Shown: positions 10,513 through 22,040 of the stretch, piece after piece | Layout of the letters: every line of letters begins with the position of its first letter | Numbering within the stretch: the first letter of the stretch is position 1 | IMG/VR virus record: IMGVR_UViG_3300047586_000126 | Span: 1 to 34,247 of that record | DNA from: a virus | Strand: one strand, 5' to 3' | DNA: 34,247 bases | The notes under the pieces: generated by a model | Told to the model about the DNA's origin: nothing | Database searches by the model: none | Seen by the model: the letters and a program-made list of their open reading frames with translations, nothing else | Program-made: the position numbers and the translations under genes

Positions 10513-10989
10513 CTAGAACTTGCCGACCTTCGCCTTCGCCGATTTATTTTCGTTCCGCCCGATATCGACGATCCCGAACTCGTTGTAGTCTACGAGCCAC
10601 GGATAAAGGAGGGCCTGGACGGCCGCCGGGACCGGAAGGTCGTCGAGCCGGTTCGGGTCGTACCATTCCTTGACGATCTCGGCCTTGATGACGCCCTGGG
10701 CCTCGAGGCCCTTCCTCCGGTCCTCATCCTCGAGGTGGACGCAAAGATAGTAGGCCTCCTCGGCCTGGGCCTTCGTCAGGATCACCAGGTCGGCCGCGCT
10801 CGCCTGCGCGTAGGTTGGGAGCGCCCATCGCGGGTCGTAGTAGAGCCGGTTATAGGCCTGGAGGAGCACCTTGTCCTTGTACGGTATCCCGGACCCGCTC
10901 CCGAGGCCGTCCCAGCATTCGGTTTCAAGTCGTTCGTCTGTGAAGTAATCATTCGCCTCGTTCACGTCAACGAACCATCCTATCGGCAT
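10513..10989 (-). CDS. Head-tail connector (DnaT-like / gp6-like adaptor)
   Basis: A 158-residue mainly helical protein. The N-terminus (GWFVDVNEANDYFTDERLETECWDGL) has the form seen at the start of many phage connector adaptors, where the motif V..A..YF....W is followed by helices carrying AYNRLYYDPRW. It is the first of the neck genes after the accessory insertion. Strong AGGAGG SD. Expected role: adaptor ring bound to the portal. A ssDNA-binding function suggested by the DnaT-like family name is not supported by anything here. Confidence 0.72.
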   Translation of the reverse strand: MPIGWFVDVNEANDYFTDERLETECWDGLGSGSGIPYKDKVLLQAYNRLYYDPRWALPTYAQASAADLVILTKAQAEEAYYLCVHLEDEDRRKGLEAQGVIKAEIVKEWYDPNRLDDLPVPAAVQALLYPWLVDYNEFGIVDIGRNENKSAKAKVGKF

Positions 10990-11008
10990 GATAGCCTCCT
11001 GTCTGCGC

Positions 11009-11239
11009 TCATAAGAACTGCCTGAGCCTCAGGGCCTCCTCCGCGAATCGGCCCCCGCTTCCATCCCGCGCGGTCCTCAGTATGCCGAAGAACGTCTCCG
11101 AGTCGAGGTGCCAAAAGGCGTCGAGAAACGCGACGAGCGCGGACTTCCTCTTGAGATCCTCAGGATGAAGCGGCGTATGCTTCTCCGCAATCGCCCAAAG
11201 GCTGTCGATCATCGCCTGTGCCGAGTCGGACGCCTGCAT
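11009..11239 (-). CDS. Hypothetical small helical protein
   Basis: A 76-residue, apparently all-helical protein with a central FLDAFWHLDSETFFGIL segment. It starts immediately after the upstream stop (TGA then ATG) with a GAGGGG element about 9 bases upstream. No family recognised. It lies at the boundary between the accessory cassette and the neck genes. It has no signal peptide or membrane segment, so a cytoplasmic or virion role is possible. Confidence 0.6.
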   Translation of the reverse strand: MQASDSAQAMIDSLWAIAEKHTPLHPEDLKRKSALVAFLDAFWHLDSETFFGILRTARDGSGGRFAEEALRLRQFL

Positions 11240-11668
11240 TCAACTGCCCCTCGCATACCCGTAGACCTTGAGGAACAGCGCATCGATCCGCGCCTCAATC
11301 TGCGCCTGCTGGCTTGCCGTCAGACCTCCATGCCGTTCAACGAGAATGTTCCGCACCAACTCGAGATAATCGGACGTGGGGTCATGGTACTGTATCGCCC
11401 CCATTGACGGATGGGCGGGGTCGACGGGCAGACCGTAAAAGTCGGTGGTCAATCCGTCTATGTGCTCGCCCGCGCTTTTGCATGGCGACTCGGGCGTGAG
11501 CATAAACCCCATAGAGTCGTAGGTGTCTGCAGGCACGATACTTATCAATTGTCTCGATGATTGCTGGGCGGAGACAAAGATGGACGTAGCTATAGCCAGC
11601 AGAAGGATTCTTATCCTGCGCAACTTTTTTCTCCTCCTCCTATCCTTCCGCGCCTGCGTCTTTGTCAT
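11240..11668 (-). CDS. Secreted protein with choice-of-anchor-Q-like C-terminal segment
   Basis: A 142-residue protein with a very basic start (KDRRRRKKLRRIR) followed by a hydrophobic stretch (about 21-33), consistent with a signal peptide or signal anchor. The middle part, ESPCKSAGEHIDGLTTDFYG followed by LPVDPAHPSMGAIQYHD, closely follows the pattern SP.(I)DAG....D..G.PR....DIGAYEY that ends beta-helix proteins with the choice-of-anchor Q domain. Here it is present without the beta helix. The C-terminal 50 residues are helical. It follows the PKD lipoprotein by 13 bases, so both may act together outside the cytoplasm. SD weak. Confidence 0.6.
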   Translation of the reverse strand: MTKTQARKDRRRRKKLRRIRILLLAIATSIFVSAQQSSRQLISIVPADTYDSMGFMLTPESPCKSAGEHIDGLTTDFYGLPVDPAHPSMGAIQYHDPTSDYLELVRNILVERHGGLTASQQAQIEARIDALFLKVYGYARGS

Positions 11669-11681
11669 CCCAGTCTGGCTA

Positions 11682-12479
11682 TTACGGGATCATCCTCGAC
11701 ATCGACATCGAGGCTTGGGTTCCGAGCGCGTTCCATACCGTCAGGTTAACGTTGTAACTCCCGGCGACTGTGAATGTATGGGTCGGATTCTGCAGGGTCG
11801 AGGTAGCCGTCCCGTCGCCGAAGTCCCAGAGCCACCTCACCGCGCCTCCCGTCGAAGTGTCCGTGAACTGGCAGACTTGTCCAACTGCGGGTCTATTCGG
11901 ACTCCAGGTAAAATTCGGGACAAGGGCAGGGGCAACCGTCAGGGACAAGGGAGAAGACGTATTCGTCCCATTGGCGTTCGTGACCTTGAGCGTCACGGCA
12001 AACGTCCCGGCCGCAAACTTGTGACTCGCGGCCTGGGTCGCGGCGGTAATGCCATCGCCGAACGTCCAGAGCCAGGCCGTGGGGGTCCCGACCGAGGTGT
12101 CCGTGAAAACGACCGTCGTATCGGCGTCGATAAAGGCCGGCGAATAGCTGAACGAGGCCTTCAGGGCCGCGACGACCGTGATGGTCTGCATAGACGTTTT
12201 CTGTGAACCGTCTGCGCCGGTGATCGTCAGGGAGACCGGAAAAATTCCTGGTCCGGCGAACGTCCCCTTTGGATTCTTCTCCGTGATCCCGGAGACCGTA
12301 TTGATCGCCCAGGTCCAATGGGCGGGATTCCCCGTCGATTGATCGAGGAACTGTACGGTCTCGCCGACCATCGGCGTTTTCGGCGTCCAGGTAAAGGCCG
12401 CCCTGAGTGCCGAGGGGTTCGGGCAGGCGATCATGACCGCGACGGCCAGGATGGCCAGGAGGACGAGTTTCTTTTTCAT
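11682..12479 (-). CDS. Lipoprotein with three PKD domains
   Basis: A 265-residue protein. Residues 1-19 form a lipoprotein signal (KKK, hydrophobic core, lipobox-like MIA-C19). Three PKD-type beta sandwiches follow: about 28-104, 107-184 and 188-260. Domains two and three carry the FGDG motif (140-143 and 220-223), while the first lacks it. Each begins with a F(T/S)(W/Y)(T/S)P strand and ends with a VTL.V..A.G.. strand. PKD domains are usually extracellular adhesion or spacer modules. A lipoprotein in a late phage operon suggests a protein displayed on the infected cell, for example for superinfection exclusion or adhesion (inference). SD AAGGAG is strong. Confidence 0.82.
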   Translation of the reverse strand: MKKKLVLLAILAVAVMIACPNPSALRAAFTWTPKTPMVGETVQFLDQSTGNPAHWTWAINTVSGITEKNPKGTFAGPGIFPVSLTITGADGSQKTSMQTITVVAALKASFSYSPAFIDADTTVVFTDTSVGTPTAWLWTFGDGITAATQAASHKFAAGTFAVTLKVTNANGTNTSSPLSLTVAPALVPNFTWSPNRPAVGQVCQFTDTSTGGAVRWLWDFGDGTATSTLQNPTHTFTVAGSYNVNLTVWNALGTQASMSMSRMIP

Positions 12480-12494
12480 GAATTTTCTCCTTTG

Positions 12495-12812
12495 CTACTT
12501 GGTTCCATAATTCTCTTTCGGTGAATAGGCCAGGACGATGGATAGGCCGCCCGGATACGCGAGATGGGTCCGAAAGTCCTCACCCCGCGCCCCCATCCGT
12601 TGAACTCTGGACGGACTCTCCGGCATCGCCCTCTTGATTGCCGCCAGCAGATTCGGCTCCGCCTGCAGCCGCGGGTCGAAGTACCGGACCATCATCGCGG
12701 AAGTTTCCGGGCTGTATTTCGTATCGATCATGTTCCCGAAGATCTCGAATATGTATTTCTCAACGCTCAGTGCGCAGAGAAGATTATCGAGATTTTTCTT
12801 ATTCAAATTCAT
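12495..12812 (-). CDS. Hypothetical protein following the methyltransferase
   Basis: A 105-residue protein starting MNLNKKNLDNLL. The start at 12812 is preferred over an ATG at 12845 because a perfect AAGGAGG lies 5 bases upstream; the longer form would overlap the methyltransferase stop as ATGA. No family recognised. Predicted mixed helix/strand, with a conserved-looking MMVRYFDPRL segment. It lies between the glycan genes and the PKD lipoprotein. Confidence 0.6.
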   Translation of the reverse strand: MNLNKKNLDNLLCALSVEKYIFEIFGNMIDTKYSPETSAMMVRYFDPRLQAEPNLLAAIKRAMPESPSRVQRMGARGEDFRTHLAYPGGLSIVLAYSPKENYGTK

Positions 12813-12841
12813 AACGGCCTCCTTCGCTTTGCCGTGGTCAA

Positions 12842-13381
12842 TCATGCCGCGCTTCTCGGGTTAAGGACGATATGGAAAAAGAACTCGCCCTTGTCGATAT
12901 TCGCCTCAAGACCCTTGAGGAGCCGGCTCATGCTCTCGTCGTCGTAGATCCGCAGGTGGCCGGGGTCGCGCCGGTCCGTCGTGGGCGTGGTGAGGACGAT
13001 CCGCATCCGCGCCATCCTGACCAGGCCCGCCATGAAAGCGGCATCGTCCTCGACGTGTTCAATCACCTCGGAGCAGACGACGGTGTCGAACTGTAAATCC
13101 GCCCCATCCCTGATGTCCCTGAGAAAGATAAATGGGATATCGGGGAAGAAGTGCCGGGCCTCCGCCACTGTTTCCTCCGAGAAGTCGACGCCGCTCCAGT
13201 TGCCCGGGTGGAATCCCCGCATGATATTGGTCGAATGGCCAAAAGCGCATCCGAGATCGAGGAACGTCTCCCCGACGCACTGGTCGGCGCACCATTTCAG
13301 CCGGTCCTGGTGCTTCGGCCATGCCAGGTGAGTCCAGACCTTCTTGCCCCGCCAGTGCTTTAGGTATTCGGAGACGTTCAT
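12842..13381 (-). CDS. Class I SAM-dependent methyltransferase
   Basis: A 179-residue protein with motif I LDLGCAFGHS (about 41-50), the acidic motif II position SGVDFSEE (63-70), and a motif IV-like VVCSEVIEHVEDD (101-113), as in small cytosolic methyltransferases of the UbiE/sugar-methylation type. The start is at 13381, where ATG overlaps the previous stop (ATGA); the upstream extension of 58 codons is a shadow of the glycosyltransferase gene. Placed in a glycan cassette it most likely methylates a sugar or a glycan end, but the substrate cannot be read from the sequence. Confidence 0.82.
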   Translation of the reverse strand: MNVSEYLKHWRGKKVWTHLAWPKHQDRLKWCADQCVGETFLDLGCAFGHSTNIMRGFHPGNWSGVDFSEETVAEARHFFPDIPFIFLRDIRDGADLQFDTVVCSEVIEHVEDDAAFMAGLVRMARMRIVLTTPTTDRRDPGHLRIYDDESMSRLLKGLEANIDKGEFFFHIVLNPRSAA

Positions 13382-14049
13382 CTTTTCCCTGCATAGTTCT
13401 TGAGGTAATATTCTCGGTAGAAGTCCTGGCGCTGGCCCCGGAGTTTCGGATTCCGGTACATCGCCGTCCCGTCGATGGCCGAGGCCAAGTTCCTGAACCG
13501 CTTCGTCGCCACAACATGCTTCGGCAGCTGTGGATGGGCCCTCATCGCCAGCCAAAGGTCATCGCAGTTTCGCGGGCACCCCCGGACGTCGAATCCGAAG
13601 ACCTCGCGGGCGGCGAGGAGAACGACCCCGCAAAAGTCAACACGGGTCGTCTCCGGCAGGAGATCGCCCCGGAAGAATGTCGTATTTACCCGATAAACCG
13701 GTCCCTGGAACGTATGCCCGAGGGTACCGACGATTCCACCCTTCTCTTTCCAGGCGCCATAAAGGTCCTCGAGGAAGCCAGTGGCCGGGAGGAGATCATC
13801 ATCAGCCAGGCAAACGAGATCACCCTCCGTAAGCAGGGCAAAGGCATAGTCCATCTTCGTCCCAAGGTCCCGGGGCATGGAGAAAATAAGGAGCCGGGGA
13901 TCCTCTGCCCTGGCCTTGAACTTTCCACTGCCGTCGAGTACCCATACCTCGTCGGCCGGCTGCGCGAGCCAGCCGACGATAACGGCGTCAAGCGTATCGA
14001 AGCGGCAGTAGGTCGTAATCAGGACCGAGATTTTCTTTCCGTCGATCAT
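13378..14049 (-). CDS. Family 2-like glycosyltransferase (A)
   Basis: A 223-residue GT-A protein: N-terminal ISVLITTYCRFDTL, an acidic VWVLDGSG segment, and the metal/nucleotide-binding acidic triad at 83-85 (LADDDLLPATGF). Shorter than a typical full GT2, with the acceptor region compact. No membrane segment, so it acts in the cytoplasm. It overlaps both neighbours by the ATGA arrangement and has a GGAG SD. The sugar and acceptor are unknown. Confidence 0.78.
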   Translation of the reverse strand: MIDGKKISVLITTYCRFDTLDAVIVGWLAQPADEVWVLDGSGKFKARAEDPRLLIFSMPRDLGTKMDYAFALLTEGDLVCLADDDLLPATGFLEDLYGAWKEKGGIVGTLGHTFQGPVYRVNTTFFRGDLLPETTRVDFCGVVLLAAREVFGFDVRGCPRNCDDLWLAMRAHPQLPKHVVATKRFRNLASAIDGTAMYRNPKLRGQRQDFYREYYLKNYAGKR

Positions 14050-14846
14050 GGCACCATCTCCGGCAAGATCCCAAACGGCTCGAGAGTCTTCTCGATGATT
14101 TCCCTCCCAAAGTAGAGGCGGACATCCGGGTTTCTTTTCCTCAGGAGCCGTTTGTGCGCCTCGATCTTCGCCTCTGTGTCGAGCACCGGCCAGGTCTCGC
14201 CGAGTTTGAGGACACTATGATTCCATCCATGCTTAACGACGCAGATCCGGTTCCTGCTCAGCGGGGTGGCCGTATGGTCGCCGGCTCCGCCGATTCCTTG
14301 AGGGACAAAGTGCTGGGCCAACATCAGAGGCCAGTTCTTGTATATCGATCTCGGGAGAATATGCGTGAAGAACGGCGAGGAAGGCCGGGAATGGTCACTC
14401 GTGACGTAACGATTGATATAGTCCCAAACGATCCGCGTCTTCCAGGCGAGGACTTCCCGGTTGTTCGAGAACCGAAGCCGCGAGCGGACCTCAGCTAGAC
14501 AATCCCTGTGGAAGAGGTCGTCGCTGTCGATCCGGGTCGTGACGAGGTAATCAGTGTCAATCTTCGCGTATTCCTCCTGGCCGTTGAACCAGCAGACGGT
14601 GACCTCGGGACTCCAGGGATAAGCCTCGAGCCTCGGCCGGTGACGCTCTCCGCATTGGACGAAGATCGCCGCCGGCTTGAACGTCTGATTCCGAAGACTC
14701 TTGAGCGTGAACCGATGGAACCAGTCGAGCCGGAAGTCGATCCATTCCGGCGTGACGAGCTGGTCGGGCCGGTCATAGCCGAGGTAGGTCTCGACGATGA
14801 ATGTCACGCTATAGTCCTTATGCCGGCCAACGATCATCTCAGGCAT
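14046..14846 (-). CDS. Putative rhamnosyltransferase-like glycosyltransferase
   Basis: A 266-residue protein. The strand TTRIDSDDLFHRDCL (about 103-117) contains the acidic cluster expected to bind the nucleotide sugar, and the N-terminal part (WFHRFTLKSLRNQTFKP) resembles the family annotated as putative rhamnosyl transferases. A later conserved-looking HGWNHSV segment may form the acceptor site. The start overlaps the deacetylase gene by 8 bases. No membrane segment. The donor sugar assignment is only a family-level guess. Confidence 0.72.
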   Translation of the reverse strand: MPEMIVGRHKDYSVTFIVETYLGYDRPDQLVTPEWIDFRLDWFHRFTLKSLRNQTFKPAAIFVQCGERHRPRLEAYPWSPEVTVCWFNGQEEYAKIDTDYLVTTRIDSDDLFHRDCLAEVRSRLRFSNNREVLAWKTRIVWDYINRYVTSDHSRPSSPFFTHILPRSIYKNWPLMLAQHFVPQGIGGAGDHTATPLSRNRICVVKHGWNHSVLKLGETWPVLDTEAKIEAHKRLLRKRNPDVRLYFGREIIEKTLEPFGILPEMVP

Positions 14847-15438
14847 CGAGCACTCCCATCGGATAGAAATAGACCCGGTCGGCGTATTTGTAGATCACTC
14901 GAAGTCGCTCAAGTATCGGTTGGTGCAGATAAACAAAGGCGGCCCCCTTCCCTCGGACCGTGTTTTCTAACAATCCACGATGATCGTTCCTCATGCAGTT
15001 CCCTTGGAAAACCCTCATCCTTTTGATCTGGACCGGAGAATAGGTCTTGTCGCCTCCCACCCCGCGCAGGGTCCGGAAGATGTCCAAAAGCACGTCATCG
15101 CTCTGGACTGTCCGGTTCCCCCACGGATATGAATAGTGAAGCGGGGATCGTAACCCATGCTCCCCGAAGAGCCGGAGTCCGGGCATGATCTCGTCGGCCA
15201 TAAAACGGGAAGGGCCTCGCGCCGCGACCTCGGCACCGGCCCTGATATGGTTGAGGCCGTGGAATCCAATGGTGTGGCCGGCGTCCTCAAGCGCCTTCAA
15301 CTTCTTCCAGCCATCATCGGTGAGGTTGGCTAGGTTCGAGGAGTAGAATGTCACCTTGATCCTGCTCTCGGCGAAGGTCGCGTACCATTCGTCAATCCAG
15401 AGATCGTCGAAACTCAGGAAAATAGCCGGGAACATCAT
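14839..15438 (-). CDS. Polysaccharide deacetylase-like protein (NodB homology)
   Basis: A 199-residue protein with NodB-type motifs: SFDD at 9-12 (motif 1), GFHGLNH with H60 and H64 (motif 2, HxxxH spacing) and SYPWGN (a motif 3-like segment). These are the Asp and two His metal ligands of CE4 enzymes that remove N-acetyl groups from sugars. The start at 15438 overlaps the previous stop (ATGA) and has a GGGGGA SD. An upstream ATG at 15480 would add 14 residues. It has no signal peptide, unlike most CE4 enzymes, so the substrate is probably cytosolic. Small for the family. Confidence 0.8.
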   Translation of the reverse strand: MMFPAIFLSFDDLWIDEWYATFAESRIKVTFYSSNLANLTDDGWKKLKALEDAGHTIGFHGLNHIRAGAEVAARGPSRFMADEIMPGLRLFGEHGLRSPLHYSYPWGNRTVQSDDVLLDIFRTLRGVGGDKTYSPVQIKRMRVFQGNCMRNDHRGLLENTVRGKGAAFVYLHQPILERLRVIYKYADRVYFYPMGVLDA

Positions 15439-16094
15439 GCCGTCCCCCATGTCTGGCCGGCCCTTGCGCGCTCCCGGCATAGCAATAGGTCCTGGTGCCG
15501 GAAGGTCCTGGCCTCCTTATGCGTTCGGTCTGGACGCAAACCCAACATGGACGGATGATAATGAGTGAGAATCGCCGCCGGCTCCCGGTGCATCTTGCCG
15601 AGTGACTCGGCGAGCCATTCAATCTCCTGGCAGGCAAAGTGATGGTAGCCGGGATAATAGATCTTCTTCCCAGGATAGCGGAGAAGGAACTTCTGGCCCA
15701 TCAGGACGACCCCTGACCAGGAGAAGTTTGGCAGGTTGGCCTGGTTGAACCCAACAACCCCATTGCCGTCCGGGAAGTGCGACTCATGCGCGGTCACGGC
15801 CGCATCGATCGAACCCGGGGCGAACTCGATGTCATCGACCGCCATAAGGACCGCGTCCTCGGACATCGGCGTCACGACGTTGCGGGCCGCGACGGACCCG
15901 ACCCGGCTCGGGGTGAAGAAGATCTGGGCGATTCTCGGATCATGCTCGTAGATTTCGCCCGTCTTGAAGTCGCCGTCGAATACGATCTTGATGTTGATCG
16001 GCTTCCCGCCGGCCGAGGTGGGGACAGAGTCGAGCATCCGCCCGAGTTTCTCCGCCCGGTTCCGCGTCGCGACGATCAGGTCAATGTATGTCAT
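15435..16094 (-). CDS. Family 2-like glycosyltransferase (B)
   Basis: A 219-residue GT-A protein. The N-terminus YIDLIVATRNRAEKLGRML is the classical GT2 opening, and the VLMAVDDIEFAPGS segment (82-95, D87/D88) supplies the metal-binding acidic pair. The downstream WSGVVLMGQKFLLRY and CQEIEWL segments resemble the acceptor-side ED motif. No membrane helix. It overlaps the upstream transferase by 14 bases and the deacetylase by ATGA. Confidence 0.8.
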   Translation of the reverse strand: MTYIDLIVATRNRAEKLGRMLDSVPTSAGGKPINIKIVFDGDFKTGEIYEHDPRIAQIFFTPSRVGSVAARNVVTPMSEDAVLMAVDDIEFAPGSIDAAVTAHESHFPDGNGVVGFNQANLPNFSWSGVVLMGQKFLLRYPGKKIYYPGYHHFACQEIEWLAESLGKMHREPAAILTHYHPSMLGLRPDRTHKEARTFRHQDLLLCRERARAGQTWGTA

Positions 16095-16737
16095 GGGTCG
16101 TTATCACTCTGAAGGGTTGCCTCTCTGATGGTCCAGTCCACCGATCGATCTGCCGCCTGTAGATCCTCGACTTCTGATACTGTTCGATAACCGGATCCCG
16201 GACGGCCCTCATCGTGTCGAATATCTTGAAGTAGGTCTCGGGGAGGCCAGCGATACGGAGGCCCGCCGCTTGCCTGTCGAGCACTCGCTGGAGGTTCTTC
16301 TGGTCCCAAACATCGGGGTAGAGTTCGTTCTCCGCAATCCAGGCCATGATGAGTTCCCTGGTTGCCTCATTGTTTTTGAGGTAGATCGTCGAACTCACGA
16401 GTTCCTTCCGCGGCCGCGGGGTCCGGTAGTATTTCGATTGGTCGAGGAAGGCGAAGGCGCAATCCACGTCGAGCGAATCGAAGAGCGAGGGATAGGCCAG
16501 GAATATAGCGTCGGCGTCAACGTAGACGATCGGTCGGCCGGCCACCCGCGGATCGTCGAACTTCCAAAGCAGGAAGTGCGCCTTGAACTGCGTATTCTTC
16601 TGCCATGAACCGAGGTTTGGGACCTCGTCGATCAGATAGTCGATTCCGAAGAGCCGGAGGGACGCCTCCAGTTTCGCGGCCTCGGCCTTGTATCCGGTCC
16701 CAGCCGTGTAGTAGGCGACGATGATGAAGGGCGTCAT
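16081..16737 (-). CDS. Nucleotide-sugar transferase with DxD motif (GT8-like)
   Basis: A 218-residue protein with strand-helix opening FIIVAYYTAGTGYKAEA and a clear DxD strand, VYVDADAIF at 71-79, preceded by KAHFLLWKFDD. This order (lysine-rich helix, then YVDADAI) is seen in cytosolic GT-A transferases close to GT8 and related families. The start at 16737 is set by the ATGA overlap with the cupin gene; 67 further codons upstream are a shadow. The SD is weak, so translation is probably coupled. Donor and acceptor unknown. Confidence 0.75.
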   Translation of the reverse strand: MTPFIIVAYYTAGTGYKAEAAKLEASLRLFGIDYLIDEVPNLGSWQKNTQFKAHFLLWKFDDPRVAGRPIVYVDADAIFLAYPSLFDSLDVDCAFAFLDQSKYYRTPRPRKELVSSTIYLKNNEATRELIMAWIAENELYPDVWDQKNLQRVLDRQAAGLRIAGLPETYFKIFDTMRAVRDPVIEQYQKSRIYRRQIDRWTGPSERQPFRVITTHDIH

Positions 16738-17105
16738 GGAAGACCTGCCTTGCCGTGCATTCCGCCGGTCGTCCGCCGTTCGATGTCCTCCTCGACCGGG
16801 GCCGCCTCGTAGAGTTCTAGGCAGACCGTCGGCTGGATCGCTGTGAACGAGTGCCAGATGCCGACCTCGATCGTCATCGACTGCCCGGCCTCGAGCGGCG
16901 TTGTGTCGGGTTGGTCCTGCTCGGCCCCCGCCGGCCACTGGTGGATGAACAGCCGGCCGGAGAGGACGTGGAAGTGGTTCCGCTTCCGGTCGTGCCGGTG
17001 CTCGGAGCAGTATCCGCCGCCGTCAATCCGGAGCAGATGCAGCGAGAAAAACGGGCTCTGGAAGAGGGAGCTCGTCGTGCCCCAGATTTTCCTTTGCTGG
17101 TCCAT
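16734..17105 (-). CDS. Cupin-fold protein of the sugar-isomerase/epimerase type
   Basis: A 123-residue single-cupin protein. Candidate metal ligands in motif 1 are H36, H38, H44 and H46 in EHRHDRKRNHFHVLSG, and GIWHSF near residue 84 fits motif 2. The N-terminal KIWGTTSSLF resembles the KPWG strand of mannose-6-phosphate isomerase type II cupins, so a role in nucleotide-sugar supply is possible. A GAGGT SD lies 6-7 bases before the ATG, inside the preceding gene, which it overlaps by 83 bases. Confidence 0.75.
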   Translation of the reverse strand: MDQQRKIWGTTSSLFQSPFFSLHLLRIDGGGYCSEHRHDRKRNHFHVLSGRLFIHQWPAGAEQDQPDTTPLEAGQSMTIEVGIWHSFTAIQPTVCLELYEAAPVEEDIERRTTGGMHGKAGLP

Positions 17106-17898
17106 TCAATACCTCGTCGATCGTTGAGAATGGAAACATCCTGAGTCCGCTTCTGGGGTTCAGGTTTATAATCCCGCCCCGTCCCTTGAGGGGCTTGAAT
17201 GCCCTTTCAAAGTCGCGGATGAATGACTGGGCGACGCGCTCAGGCTGTGGCGCGCCGTAGCCGTCATGGAAGTGGGAGCGCCCACCCTCGTGCCGCATAT
17301 CGTATCCGAGCAGGTAGATCGGCCTGGCGCCCATGCAGAGCGCGAGGCCGAGAGCCCCCGTCCCGGAGTTGTTGCCGTGGTAGATTCCGGCCTTGAGCGA
17401 CCCCGATATGCCGTGCCGCCCGAGCGACCGGACTGAATAACAGTCTTCGACCTTCCTTCCCATCAGGTTCAGGAAGATCTTGTATCCCTTGAACGCCTCC
17501 CACTTCGCCAACCGCGCCGGATCCTCATGGCACATCTTGTAGAACTTAAGGTCCATGAAGAACAGGATGTCCGCGAAAGGCGCATACTCGAAGGCCCGGT
17601 TGATGGCGATGACGCGCCCGCGCCCGCGAAGGCGCTCGAAGTCGAATCCGATGAGCGACGGCCCCCCGCCGAGGATGAAGCAGGTCTCGCCCCGCCAGGC
17701 CCCGTCGGCGAGGACCGCGTGGGCCGGATTGTAAGGATCCACAACCCGCCGGGCCGCCTCTTGGTTCTCGGCCAGCAGCCGCGCCCGGTCTTCATGGATC
17801 TCCTTCACCGTCCGGCTATTCGTCGTCAGCAACATGTCCATCATCTCCAAAAGAGCAGGACAAGGGCGGAGGATTTTCGGCTCCGCCCCCGCCTGCAT
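17023..17898 (-). CDS. DUF115/MptE-like protein with Rossmann-like GGGPSL motif
   Basis: A 291-residue protein with the nucleotide-binding motif CFILGGGPSL at 73-82, then VIAINRAFEYAPFADILFFMD and a later GNNSGTGALGLALCMGA and YLLGYDM. This arrangement is typical of the DUF115 group and related phage proteins compared with sialyltransferase-like folds. It probably handles a nucleotide-activated sugar. The start at 17898 has an AGGAAAG SD. It is the first gene after the capsid gene and therefore opens the accessory cassette. Its last 83 bases overlap the cupin gene in another frame. Confidence 0.68.
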   Translation of the reverse strand: MQAGAEPKILRPCPALLEMMDMLLTTNSRTVKEIHEDRARLLAENQEAARRVVDPYNPAHAVLADGAWRGETCFILGGGPSLIGFDFERLRGRGRVIAINRAFEYAPFADILFFMDLKFYKMCHEDPARLAKWEAFKGYKIFLNLMGRKVEDCYSVRSLGRHGISGSLKAGIYHGNNSGTGALGLALCMGARPIYLLGYDMRHEGGRSHFHDGYGAPQPERVAQSFIRDFERAFKPLKGRGGIINLNPRSGLRMFPFSTIDEVLNGPAKENLGHDELPLPEPVFLAASAPD

Positions 17899-17943
17899 TT
17901 CACTTTCCTAAGTCATCCCCGGATCATTGGTATCCGAGGCCCC

Positions 17944-19110
17944 TCAGGTCCCCTTGTGGACCGCTGGGGCGAAAGGGGCGTTGAGATCCTCCAGGGATCC
18001 CACTTCCTTGCCGCAAACGTCCGTGACCTTGGCGCATGCCCCGATCGGGGCCGCGGCCATGTTCGGGCAGGAGCCGCTCTGCGGTTCGAATTCGACGCAC
18101 GCGATCTGGTCGAGGTCGCCGATGCACCCGCCGTGGCGCATCCAGCCGGCGACCGTGTCCGTGTAGGACAGGATGTCGAAGTCGTCGAACAGCGTGAGGT
18201 CCATCCGGTAGCCGATCTTGAGCGTCTTCTTGGGAAGGATGACCATGACCCGGTTTGGGTTGGTCAGCATGAGCGAGGTGATCTGCTGGAAGTTGTAGTC
18301 GATGACCGGGGCGGAGCCGGGGAACGGCTGGTTGACGACGCCGAGCGCCTGCTTCACCCGGCCGCGCATCTGAATCGGGGTGAGGACGATGAACTGGGTC
18401 GTTTGGGGGTTGAGGTTGTAGCCGCGGCCGGCCGTATTCAGGAGGATCGACATGGCCGCGAAGTTGAGGGAGTCGGCGATCGAACGGGCGTCCGCCGAGC
18501 AGTCGGAGCAGTCCGACTGAACGACCTTGCAGCAGCCGACGGCGTCGGCCGCGGCCTCGAGGAGCGCATAGTAGATGCCCGCCCGGCCCCCGTAGGCCGC
18601 CGCGCGGAACTCGATCGCGTTGTCCTCGATCGTCCACCAGTCTCCGTCATCGAAGAGCTGGCGGTGCCAGCCGAGCGCGCCGCCGTAGTAGCAGAAGTAG
18701 CAGCGGTACTTGTCGCCGGACATTTCGTAGACCTTGAGCTTTTCCCCGGGCTTGATCTCCTTGAAGGTCAGGCCGCTCGTCACGCCGGCGACGTCGAACC
18801 CGGAGGCCTTCGTGCCCGCGTAATCGTTGACCTGGAAGATCTGCTCGAAGCTCGTGTCGTACTCGCCGACCTGATGGAACCTCTCCACGACGTCGATGGC
18901 CTTTTCATTCGGGTAGCCGTCCGACATCAGCGTAAACTCGTGGACCTGCTTGTGCCTCTTCACGAACTCCTGGACCTTCTTGAGACGGTCCGGGATGAAC
19001 GGGTTCGGCATGGCCAGGAACATCTGGAGGGCGCCGGCGAGCTGGAGCCGCTGCTCCTTGTCCTTGTAGTTGAACTTTTCCCAGTCGAGATTGAAGATTC
19101 TGCTTTTCAT
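17944..19110 (-). CDS. Major capsid protein
   Basis: A 388-residue protein immediately after protease/scaffold and decoration genes, the standard slot of the HK97-fold capsid subunit. The middle portion (LGWHRQLFDDGDWWTIED, then AGIYYALLEAAADA) resembles the Mu gpT/long capsid group, with a helix carrying the YY pair before the spine helix. It has 11 cysteines (137, 140, 193, 194, 201, 204, 329, 338, 348, 359, 366), including two CxxC pairs and a CC, which is unusual for a capsid. Strong SD AAGGAG 6 bases before the ATG. A long opposite-strand ORF here is an artefact of codon bias. Confidence 0.88.
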   Translation of the reverse strand: MKSRIFNLDWEKFNYKDKEQRLQLAGALQMFLAMPNPFIPDRLKKVQEFVKRHKQVHEFTLMSDGYPNEKAIDVVERFHQVGEYDTSFEQIFQVNDYAGTKASGFDVAGVTSGLTFKEIKPGEKLKVYEMSGDKYRCYFCYYGGALGWHRQLFDDGDWWTIEDNAIEFRAAAYGGRAGIYYALLEAAADAVGCCKVVQSDCSDCSADARSIADSLNFAAMSILLNTAGRGYNLNPQTTQFIVLTPIQMRGRVKQALGVVNQPFPGSAPVIDYNFQQITSLMLTNPNRVMVILPKKTLKIGYRMDLTLFDDFDILSYTDTVAGWMRHGGCIGDLDQIACVEFEPQSGSCPNMAAAPIGACAKVTDVCGKEVGSLEDLNAPFAPAVHKGT

Positions 19111-19120
19111 GGCTTACTCC

Positions 19121-19528
19121 TTAAGGCCTGACGGCCGCACCTGCGCCGTCAAGGTCGATCTCGACCAGGGCTTCGGACGCGGCCGCCGGCTCGGTTGCGA
19201 TACCGATCCGGTAATAGCCGCTGTCGATGCCGGGATGGACGAGACGAGTGGCGGGGTCCCAGTAGACCACGTCCCCGACTCCGAAGACGTCCCCGGAATC
19301 GATGCCCTTCACGACGAGAATCTTCTCGGCGTGATAGATGAGGACTCCCTCATCGCCCACGTCGGCGGACTCGAGGAGCGCCCCGACCGAATCCCCCACG
19401 AGATAAAGCCAGGGTTCCCCGGCAGCCCAGGAGGCTTTCCCCCCGAGCAGCCCGCCCGACGTGATACACGTGAACTTGAACGACCGCCAATCGCCCATCG
19501 GCGTGGCGGTTCTTAGCATGTTGGGCAC
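19121..19528 (-). CDS. Capsid decoration-like protein (DUF2190 type)
   Basis: A 135-residue, Gly/Val-rich beta protein starting at a GTG with AGGAGTAAGCA SD. The pattern of short strands with WAAGEPWLYLVGDSVGALL and VVYWDPATRLVHPG, then GIATEPAA and VEIDLDG near the end, is characteristic of phage decoration proteins that trimerise on the capsid surface. It lies between the scaffold and capsid genes as expected. A second in-frame ATG is at residue 4. Confidence 0.75.
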   Translation of the reverse strand: MPNMLRTATPMGDWRSFKFTCITSGGLLGGKASWAAGEPWLYLVGDSVGALLESADVGDEGVLIYHAEKILVVKGIDSGDVFGVGDVVYWDPATRLVHPGIDSGYYRIGIATEPAAASEALVEIDLDGAGAAVRP

Positions 19529-19589
19529 TGCTTACTCCTATTTTTTAGATTTTCTCTTTCCGCTTTTTCACGGCTGGTCCGCCGGCCCC

Positions 19590-20750
19590 TCAGTCGAGCT
19601 TGATCATCGGGTTCTTCGCCGGGTTCAGGTAATCGCTTTGGGAGTCTCCGGCTTGCGTCTCGTCCGGCTCCGCGCCGGCCTTCTTCTCGCCGCCGTTGCC
19701 GCCCTCACCTTTCTCCGGCCCGATTCCGAACACATCTTTCGCGAGCCGCCCGCACTCATCGATCTCCGAGTCGAGGTAGGCATTGAATTCCTTCTCGACG
19801 TCCTCGACCTTCGAGGGGGCGAACCGCTGGAGACGCGCCAGGACGAATTTTTCCTGCTGTTCGTTGAGCTTCCGGGCATCCTTCTGCTTCGCGAACAACG
19901 CCGGGACCTGGGCCTTCGCGGCATCGAGCCGCAACCGGCCGACCTCGGCCTCTTTCGCCTGGACCTTCTTCTCGAGCTCATCCCGGGTCTTGTCGAATCC
20001 CTCCTCGGTGCGCTTCCTGTGGGCATACTCGCCCGCGACGGCGCTCCGCTTCTGATTCTCGACGAAACCCGTGACCGCGGGATCGCTGGTCAAATCTTCC
20101 ACTCCGAACACGTCGGATGGCGCTACTTTTTCCGCCTTGAGGAACGCCTTGACGTCCTCAATCGTGATGTCCATAAATTCTTCTCCTTCGATGTGCTTAT
20201 TTTTCGCGAATGCCTGGACCTGGCCGAGGAGCGTTGCGCCGGTGAATCCAGGGGTTTCAACTGCCGAATTACTGAGCGCGATAGCCGTCACCTCGCCTAC
20301 GTCGGCGACGTAAAGCCCGCGCGCCCTATCCTGCTCGAGGTCGACCGATGCCTCGATGGAGGCGATATCGAGCGGCAGGTGCCGATACTCCGGGAAGATG
20401 TGGCAGGCGACGACGGTCGAGACCCGGTCCCCAATCCTCATCAGTTTCTTCCCGACGACCTCGCCGATCGCCATCCGGCCGGCCTGGTCGTTGGTGTCGC
20501 CGTGGCCATGAAAGATCTTGAGGCCCATCTGGATCGCCTCGTGGAGCTTCACGACGGCGGACCGGAACCATCGCTTGACGATGTTCCCGACGCCGACGAG
20601 GTAGCCCGCCGCCTCTCCCTCGTGACCGACGACAAACGCCTTGAATATCGGGTGCGGGTCGGTGCGCTGGATCTCCCGGATCCTCGCCGGGCCGACCATC
20701 GCGGTGATCTCGCTCGACGCCATCTCCCGAACCCGCGCTTGGATTCTCAT
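19590..20750 (-). CDS. Prohead protease-scaffold fusion
   Basis: A 386-residue protein. Residues about 1-190 look like a prohead protease of the Mu gpI type: GLKIFHGHGDTNDQAGRMAIG with candidate H81/H83, and VTAIALSNSAVETPGFTGA with candidate catalytic S160/S162. Residues 193-386 are a scaffold-like part: a short helix, long coiled coil (about 245-290) and a Gly/Lys/Glu-rich tail. An internal ATG at codon 193 has its own SD, so a separate scaffold is likely. The last 14 residues (DYLNPAKNPMIKLD) match the C-terminus of the small protein at 21.5 kb. The start has SD AAGGGG. Confidence 0.85.
   Translation of the reverse strand: MRIQARVREMASSEITAMVGPARIREIQRTDPHPIFKAFVVGHEGEAAGYLVGVGNIVKRWFRSAVVKLHEAIQMGLKIFHGHGDTNDQAGRMAIGEVVGKKLMRIGDRVSTVVACHIFPEYRHLPLDIASIEASVDLEQDRARGLYVADVGEVTAIALSNSAVETPGFTGATLLGQVQAFAKNKHIEGEEFMDITIEDVKAFLKAEKVAPSDVFGVEDLTSDPAVTGFVENQKRSAVAGEYAHRKRTEEGFDKTRDELEKKVQAKEAEVGRLRLDAAKAQVPALFAKQKDARKLNEQQEKFVLARLQRFAPSKVEDVEKEFNAYLDSEIDECGRLAKDVFGIGPEKGEGGNGGEKKAGAEPDETQAGDSQSDYLNPAKNPMIKLD
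20172..20188 (-). promoter_or_regulatory. Internal ribosome binding site and ATG for a separate scaffold protein
   Basis: On the minus strand an AAGGAG SD (20188-20183) lies 8 bases before an in-frame ATG (20174-20172) inside the protease-scaffold gene, within the codons for EGEEFMD. Initiation here would give a 194-residue scaffold lacking the protease, as lambda gpNu3 is made within gpC. The spacing and the match at the domain boundary support use. Confidence 0.7.
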
Positions 20751-21046
20751 TACTTCCCCTTCTTGGGCCGCCCTTTCGCGGCCACCTTCTTCTGGGCCGC
20801 TGCCTTGATTGCCTGCATCCGCTTGGCCTCTTCGATCCGGACCGCCCGCGTCTTCGCCGCGGCGATATCCCGGAGCTGGTTCGTGAAGATCACGCCCTGC
20901 GTGTGCTTTGGCTTCGGCTTGACGCCGGCATACCGGCCGCCGTTAAAGTTGAAGGCGCCGCCGACCTTGACGGCCGACGAGAGGATGACCCGCTTCGTCT
21001 GCGGTGTGTCATTGAGTTTTGGCTTGACTATATTCGTTGAAATCAT
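20750..21046 (-). CDS. Small basic protein in the head module
   Basis: A 98-residue protein starting MISTNIVKPKLN; the ATG at 21046 is chosen because AAGGAG lies 5 bases upstream, while an upstream GTG at 21052 would overlap that SD. The C-terminal third is a highly charged helix ending in AAAQKKVAAKGRPKKGK, suggesting nucleic-acid or acidic-protein binding. No family recognised. It is immediately before the protease gene (TAATG). Possible head-interior protein, by position only. Confidence 0.62.
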   Translation of the reverse strand: MISTNIVKPKLNDTPQTKRVILSSAVKVGGAFNFNGGRYAGVKPKPKHTQGVIFTNQLRDIAAAKTRAVRIEEAKRMQAIKAAAQKKVAAKGRPKKGK

Positions 21047-21080
21047 GCTCACTCCTTATCCGACGCCAACCATCTTTCGC

Positions 21081-21520: not shown

Positions 21521-21826
21521 TCACTCCTCTCCGATCTTGATGATCAGGTTCTTTTTGGGGTTCAAGTGGTCGGGCAGTTCTGTCTCCTGGACCGCCCCGG
21601 ATGCGGCTGCCTCGAACTTGCCCTTATGCTTCCGGCAGTCCGCCGACGCCTCCGCCGCCGTCCACGATGACTTCGGGTAGCGGATCGCCTGGGCCGTCGT
21701 CTTCGGGTCGCCCTTGAGCTTCCCGATGATCATCGAGACCTTGCCGCTCGCTATCCGCCGGAACGAGTTCGGCTGGAATTCCCCCGGCTCTCTCAGCCGG
21801 CACGAATGTTCCGCTTGGTATGGCAT
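21521..21826 (-). CDS. Small head-module protein with protease-associated domain and shared C-terminal motif
   Basis: A 101-residue protein starting MPYQAEHSCRLREPGEF; the ATG at 21826 is fixed by AGGAGG 6 bases upstream. The pattern EHSCRLR, then GKLKGDPKTTAQAIRYPKSSW, then CRKHKGKFEAA, is one I recall from proteins or domains linked to phage prohead proteases. The C-terminal DHLNPKKNLIIKI closely matches the end of the protease-scaffold gene (DYLNPAKNPMIKL). A common binding partner such as capsid or portal is an inference. It partly overlaps the zinc-ribbon gene in another frame. Confidence 0.72.
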   Translation of the reverse strand: MPYQAEHSCRLREPGEFQPNSFRRIASGKVSMIIGKLKGDPKTTAQAIRYPKSSWTAAEASADCRKHKGKFEAAASGAVQETELPDHLNPKKNLIIKIGEE

Positions 21827-22040
21827 TTGTTCCTCCTGAATGTCTTCGATTGATGCGGTGCCGCATGACGAGGCCCATCTGATGGCCACAGGCCGCGTTG
21901 AGGCACTTCGCGCACAGGGCCCAGCCCTTGCGACGGAACGGGCACTTGCAGGGGATCTTGAACATCGGTCCCCCGCACTTCGGGCAGGGGCTTGGCGCAA
22001 TCTCAATCCCGGCCACTCGGCGGCCTGAGTGCATGACCAT
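21624..22040 (-). CDS. Zinc-ribbon protein after the portal gene, with long out-of-frame overlap
   Basis: A 138-residue frame starting MVMHSG in a TGATG junction with the portal stop, with a GGAGGGG element a few bases upstream. The first about 60 residues are clearly patterned: CPKC at 19-22, CKC at 31-33 and CAKC at 43-46, with a further C51, as in a zinc ribbon. The remaining about 70 residues overlap the next gene (21826..21521) in a different frame by 203 bases and look like shadow sequence (GGIPAELVPADSERQ). Either a C-terminal stop was lost or the tail has no function. A zinc-binding role is inferred; substrate unknown. Confidence 0.55.
   Translation of the reverse strand: MVMHSGRRVAGIEIAPSPCPKCGGPMFKIPCKCPFRRKGWALCAKCLNAACGHQMGLVMRHRINRRHSGGTNAIPSGTFVPAERAGGIPAELVPADSERQGLDDHREAQGRPEDDGPGDPLPEVIVDGGGGVGGLPEA

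Follow-up and report, generated by a model that had tools for sequence, protein, structure and literature searches.

Maf is a cytosolic protein O-glycosyltransferase that is often encoded beside its structural acceptor. In the literature that we found, glycosylation of phage virions is described mainly for mycobacteriophages (PMC12363180, PMC12619734); in Che8, Corndog and Myrna, phage glycosyltransferases modify capsid and tail-tube proteins (Freeman et al. 2023, as cited in these two articles). Searches on Maf-type enzymes in phage head modules and on Aminicenantes phages returned nothing relevant from a literature in which subscription journals were thinly represented. Here, we describe a locus in a 34,247-base IMG/VR virus record (the window, meaning the whole stretch analysed) whose glycosyltransferases also lie in or near structural genes. 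We propose that it is probably a virion-glycosylation locus, in which a Maf-type enzyme starts a glycan on a virion protein while this is still in the cytosol, and the chain is then extended by enzymes that vary between phages.

Eight glycan-modification genes lie between the capsid and neck genes

The late genes of the window, including every window gene located below, are on the minus strand and run from terminase, portal, a protease/scaffold-like protein and a decoration protein to the major capsid protein (MCP), the cassette, the neck and the tail. We infer that 17944-19110 (PHROG 24071) encodes the MCP from this gene order, a decoration-protein match upstream and Foldseek matches that are weak, were obtained with a low-confidence AF2 model (pLDDT 49) and are nearly all HK97-fold capsids. 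Five of its cysteines (Cys194, Cys201, Cys204, Cys329 and Cys338) are invariant in 18 closer relatives and not in distant ones, possibly as a metal site or disulfides. Elsewhere in the head module, the proteins at 19590-20750 and 21521-22006 end in a similar motif (DYLNPAKNPMI and DHLNPKKNLII), also present in relatives, that is possibly a scaffold-type docking tail.

The original prediction of eight adjacent, mostly overlapping genes between MCP and neck proved accurate: all are real, share the minus strand and have Pfam or PHROG support. They occupy 12842-17898, with neighbors overlapping by 4-83 nt and a sole gap of 45 nt separating the MCP gene from the first enzyme. This conserved anchor gene (17023-17898), recognized by PHROG 4603, its AF2 model and synteny, encodes a DUF115-like glycosyltransferase of Maf/GT42 fold with an N-terminal 'LLTTNSRTVKEI' tag. 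An 83-nt overlap joins it to a cupin gene (16734-17105; Cupin_2), a possible sugar epimerase or isomerase, and a similar overlap occurs in the related loci L003-L005. Next are a Nucleotid_trans-type DxD glycosyltransferase (16081-16737; PF03407, E 2e-7, above cut-off) and a GT2-like glycosyltransferase (15435-16094; PF00535, E 0.002, below the Pfam cut-off, and PHROG 14945 glycosyltransferase, E 8e-4). The NodB-type deacetylase (14839-15480; PF01522, Polysacc_deac_1, E 3e-8) has Asp-Asp and His-x3-His motifs whose residues Asp25, Asp26, His74 and His78 are invariant in four homologues; searches of PDB sequences with this protein and the cupin gave no match. The cassette continues with a rhamnosyltransferase-like glycosyltransferase (14046-14846; PF11316, Rhamno_transf, 22.5 bits against a cut-off of 23.0) and a GT2 glycosyltransferase (13378-14049; PF00535, E 6e-6, above cut-off), and it ends with a SAM methyltransferase (12842-13381; PF08241, Methyltransf_11, E 5e-10), possibly a glycan cap. 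As had been claimed, the deacetylase has no signal peptide and none of the eight proteins has a transmembrane stretch, their highest 19-residue hydropathy being 1.44 against the usual cut-off of 1.6.

The cassette was originally drawn to begin at 11682, which also takes in two further genes. One (12495-12845) overlaps the methyltransferase gene by 4 nt and encodes a 116-residue protein without assigned function. The other (11682-12479) encodes a protein with three PKD domains (PF18911, E 1e-36) and an N-terminal export signal (hydropathy 2.15, over the cut-off) and is not a glycan enzyme; locus L003 carries an exported relative. Together with the product of 11240-11668, whose hydrophobic N-terminal segment nearly reaches the cut-off (1.57), it forms a pair of probably exported late-operon proteins between cassette and neck. 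The first conserved neck-side gene (10513-10989), which is kept in relatives ahead of a MuF-type minor head protein, marks the end of the variable region. Opposite the 250-nt gap at 10990-11239 of the window, the close relative L002 has three extra genes (17887-20471; 85, 125 and 624 residues), a difference that marks a recent gain or loss beside the cassette. Candidate promoters or terminators separating the cassette from the MCP gene matched at chance level only.

The first enzyme has the catalytic fold of Maf

The DUF115-like enzyme matches PHROG 4603 over residues 77-266 (E 1.4e-30); the name of that family, 'alpha-2,3-sialyltransferase', is an annotation and not a tested activity. Against Pfam PF01973 (MptE-like/DUF115) it scores 24.2 bits, short of the gathering cut-off of 34.6, and we therefore do not file it as a DUF115 member. 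Its AF2 model (pLDDT 85.7) has the fold of the Maf catalytic domain, the closest structure being Maf of Magnetospirillum (PDB 5mu5; Z 15.2, 193 residues, rmsd 3.6), followed by Cst-II and Cst-I (Z about 11) and HPPK (10.7). Foldseek ranks Cst-II first. A PDB profile search likewise puts Cst-II on top, though at a marginal E of 0.07; GxGPSL, an Asn and SG...IYLxGxD align. Conserved residues of the enzyme include Asn100, Asp116 and His211. In distant relatives, the DUF115 domain is joined to a GT2 or GT9 domain in one protein. A nonulosonic acid donor would call for NeuB, which was detected in one of three host metagenome-assembled genomes (MAGs); the other two may be incomplete.

The anchor gene accompanies the capsid gene

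Searches with the MCP and then with an MCP profile yielded 71 viral contigs, nine of which break off no more than about 100 bases from the MCP gene. In 61 of the 62 with at least 350 bp downstream of it, several of them near-identical pairs and so not all independent, the DUF115-like gene comes first after the MCP gene, counting L071, L084 and L094, where it is second behind a cupin gene. This synteny reaches down to an MCP identity of about 33%. The exception, L088, has a methyltransferase gene first and then the contig ends. Related MCPs occur at seven loci in bacterial genomes, and the enzyme accompanies six of them. At the seventh, L191 in an Acidobacteriota genome, the MCP is the most distant and is followed by large unassigned proteins with no DUF115 gene; this locus is possibly an outgroup or a remnant. 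Comparison with related phages lacking the cassette, a check proposed at the outset, was possible with L096 and L097, which keep the DUF115-like gene alone between MCP and neck. Judged by gene order, the first enzyme belongs to the core genes of these phages and is no insertion; the description of the cassette as inserted fits the variable block.

The first four genome matches were all MAGs of Candidatus Aminicenantes. One MAG holds two prophages with related MCPs in contigs of 415 and 189 kb with flanking cellular genes, and one of those MCPs is about 36% identical to that of the window. Closer MCP matches (84% and 70%) are only short contigs in MAGs, so the host is inferred: the virus probably infects Aminicenantes bacteria.

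The other cassette genes vary among relatives. The MCP-neck intervals of relatives hold 131 further proteins, mainly GT2 enzymes, methyltransferases and cupins. Distance correlation with the MCP is highest for the decoration protein (0.81) and portal (0.76), followed by the neck genes (0.64) and the DUF115-like enzyme (0.60), and falls through the cupin (0.44), the Nucleotid_trans enzyme (0.42) and the first GT2 (0.33) to the second GT2 (0.18). We also compared dS and dN between the window and L002, whose MCP is 98% identical. Here, dS is 0.13-0.18 for the MCP and DUF115-like genes, 0.30-0.35 from the cupin to the first GT2 and 0.67-0.92 from the NodB gene to the methyltransferase, before dropping to 0.05-0.08 in the next two genes. 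The protein at 12495-12845 is 99% identical in L002, the cassette enzymes 80-87%. By this pattern, recombination exchanged the block for chain extension and decoration but left the MCP gene, the DUF115-like gene and the two genes that follow the block in place. Exchange is not limited to the cassette, since divergence is also high (dS 0.70) in the neck-side gene 10513-10989. With dN/dS between 0.05 and 0.32, the genes are under purifying selection and therefore encode working proteins. On these comparisons the DUF115-like enzyme evolves with the MCP and the later cassette genes are shuffled, and we suggest that this replacement resembles that of surface-glycan loci.

Collagen-like Gly-X-Y proteins lie between MCP and neck in two relatives (L009, 16910-18250; L012, 14515-16098) and are candidate head fibers or glycan acceptors.

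A short N-terminal peptide is common to the enzyme and a head-module protein

The peptide [MVI][IL]TT-x-[DNS]-[IL] occurs near the N-terminus of the DUF115-like enzyme, of some other cassette enzymes and of small zinc-finger-like proteins. A small head-module protein repeats the motif two or three times; in the window this protein is Lys/Pro-rich and has three copies (20750-21052; MISTN, VILSS and VIFTN). We trained a motif on this protein of the portal-protease gap only, so that 34 of 39 such proteins matched by construction, and scored others for a match of at least 10 within the first 60 residues; related proteins are non-independent samples. The tag was found in 22 of 57 DUF115 proteins against 0.16 expected from shuffles, and in 12 of 259 other cassette proteins against 1.2. 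Among controls, the score was reached by 6 of 2091 antisense reading frames and by 5 of 632 further proteins, core or unclassified (3.3 expected); this last set leaves out protease/scaffold proteins and the rest of the gap proteins, which were tallied separately. The clearest tagged proteins other than DUF115 are in L091, L066, L068, L048 and L100. In distant DUF115 fusions the motif is looser and occurs two or three times; at many of these loci no separate small protein is visible.

We tentatively suggest, as the best reading of the motif's distribution, that the tag may be a docking peptide that recruits glycosyltransferases to the assembling head, the enzyme often having several copies where a separate small protein is not seen. 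A glycosylation sequon is disfavored because distant members have Ser/Thr/Arg-Met/Ile in place of Thr-Thr. Nor is the tag a general feature of the enzyme family, as DUF115 proteins of other phage groups do not have it. Small CxxC zinc-finger-like proteins that open with a MITT-type tag were seen in the portal-protease gap of L009 (61 residues) and behind the MCP in L048, L100 and L017 (72-73 residues).

Related enzymes recur in other head modules

The search of other phage late operons that had been proposed showed DUF115-like enzymes in head modules whose capsid or portal proteins are unrelated. In Pseudomonas phage D3, which can be grown in the laboratory, the PHROG 4603 homologue orf7 (31% identity) lies between the major head protein and a head-tail adaptor, and in Tetraselmis viridis virus S20 the homologue has the presumed capsid gene on one side and head closure on the other. 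Others follow a head-closure gene (L030) or a portal and head-morphogenesis gene (L031), or lie downstream of an HK97-type major head protein (L032). In a second group, the homologue is preceded by a capsid-like PHROG 1623 protein and a head-tail adaptor or, in L166, by an SPP1-type portal. Because the MCP of the window has no match in 50,697 phage records, a single capsid lineage does not account for the association of enzyme and head. Jumbo phages of Caulobacter and Brevundimonas carry the homologue beside tail and lysis genes, and the acceptor therefore need not be the MCP.

The D3 reading frame (L033, 4990-5558) starts upstream of the annotated orf7 start and overlaps orf6.5, so the annotated gene seems truncated. 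Our literature search, largely outside the subscription journals, found no study of virion modification in D3.

Discussion

The original prediction took a virion-protein glycan as the simplest reading, and it gains support from the synteny with the MCP gene, the recurrence in unrelated head modules, the Maf/Cst-II fold and the co-inheritance with the MCP. In this model, synthesis would begin in the host cytosol, where the DUF115-like enzyme would attach the initial sugar to a head protein encoded in the same operon. This protein would most likely be the MCP or one displayed on the head, and the MCP probably serves as acceptor or as docking partner. The chain would be lengthened by the Nucleotid_trans, GT2 and rhamnosyltransferase-like enzymes, in an order of action that we leave tentative, the cupin may supply or epimerize a sugar, and the deacetylase and methyltransferase would modify the chain. 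The result would be a changeable coat on the particle, whose variation may serve escape from particle-binding factors or adhesion.

A variant in which not the MCP but other virion proteins, for example head fibers, carry the glycan seems to us possible but on balance doubtful. PKD, collagen-like, LamG-like and other large proteins share the intervals, but they vary or are absent, as in L096 and L097, whereas the DUF115-like enzyme stays constant beside the MCP. That the cassette instead modifies host surface glycans, as in serotype conversion, or makes a released glycan is unlikely. Surface-glycan loci often contain methyltransferases, deacetylases and GT2 enzymes, and two exported proteins come after the cassette. 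However, the absence of a flippase, noted at the outset, extended to 21 phage records, some of them fragments: searches whose controls were positive found no GtrA or Wzx-type flippase in any. The lack of membrane segments, the tie of the anchor enzyme to the MCP and the late-operon position also speak against a surface role.

Two further readings would place the activity elsewhere. Tagged enzymes might travel inside the head and be delivered into the next host to act there, since the tag is common to the DUF115-like enzyme, other cassette enzymes and the small head-module protein and is reminiscent of the T4 capsid-targeting sequence; most cassette enzymes, however, including seven of the eight in the window, do not have it, and we consider packaging very improbable. 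Still harder to credit is glycosylation of hypermodified phage DNA. Phage glycosyltransferases that act on DNA are known (cited in PMC12619734), but the same records, some of them fragments, held no thymidylate-synthase-family or hydroxymethylase homologue (0 of 21, controls positive), and both the late structural operon and the Maf/Cst-II fold point away from DNA.

In a virus group with prophages in uncultured Aminicenantes, a Maf-type enzyme is the near-constant partner of the capsid gene. If virion glycosylation is right, tailed phages would generally coat their particles with variable glycans, a trait so far overlooked and open to immediate testing, and genes now annotated as sialyltransferase would acquire a function.

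The locus shares with D3 a homologous enzyme in a head module after the major head protein, but D3 has a single gene, with a methyltransferase a few genes on, and another capsid family. Like gtr serotype-conversion cassettes, it consists of glycan genes carried by a phage; unlike them, it has no GtrA flippase or membrane protein. For mycobacteriophages, one or two glycosyltransferases are named, whereas the window has a Maf-type anchor fixed beside the MCP and a long variable cassette; phage lineage and host phylum also differ, and the likeness described is that the glycosyltransferases are phage-encoded. The Maf flagellin glycosyltransferases have the same fold as the window enzyme, which differs from them in lying beside a capsid gene, in having the central domain only and in its Pfam score under the cut-off.
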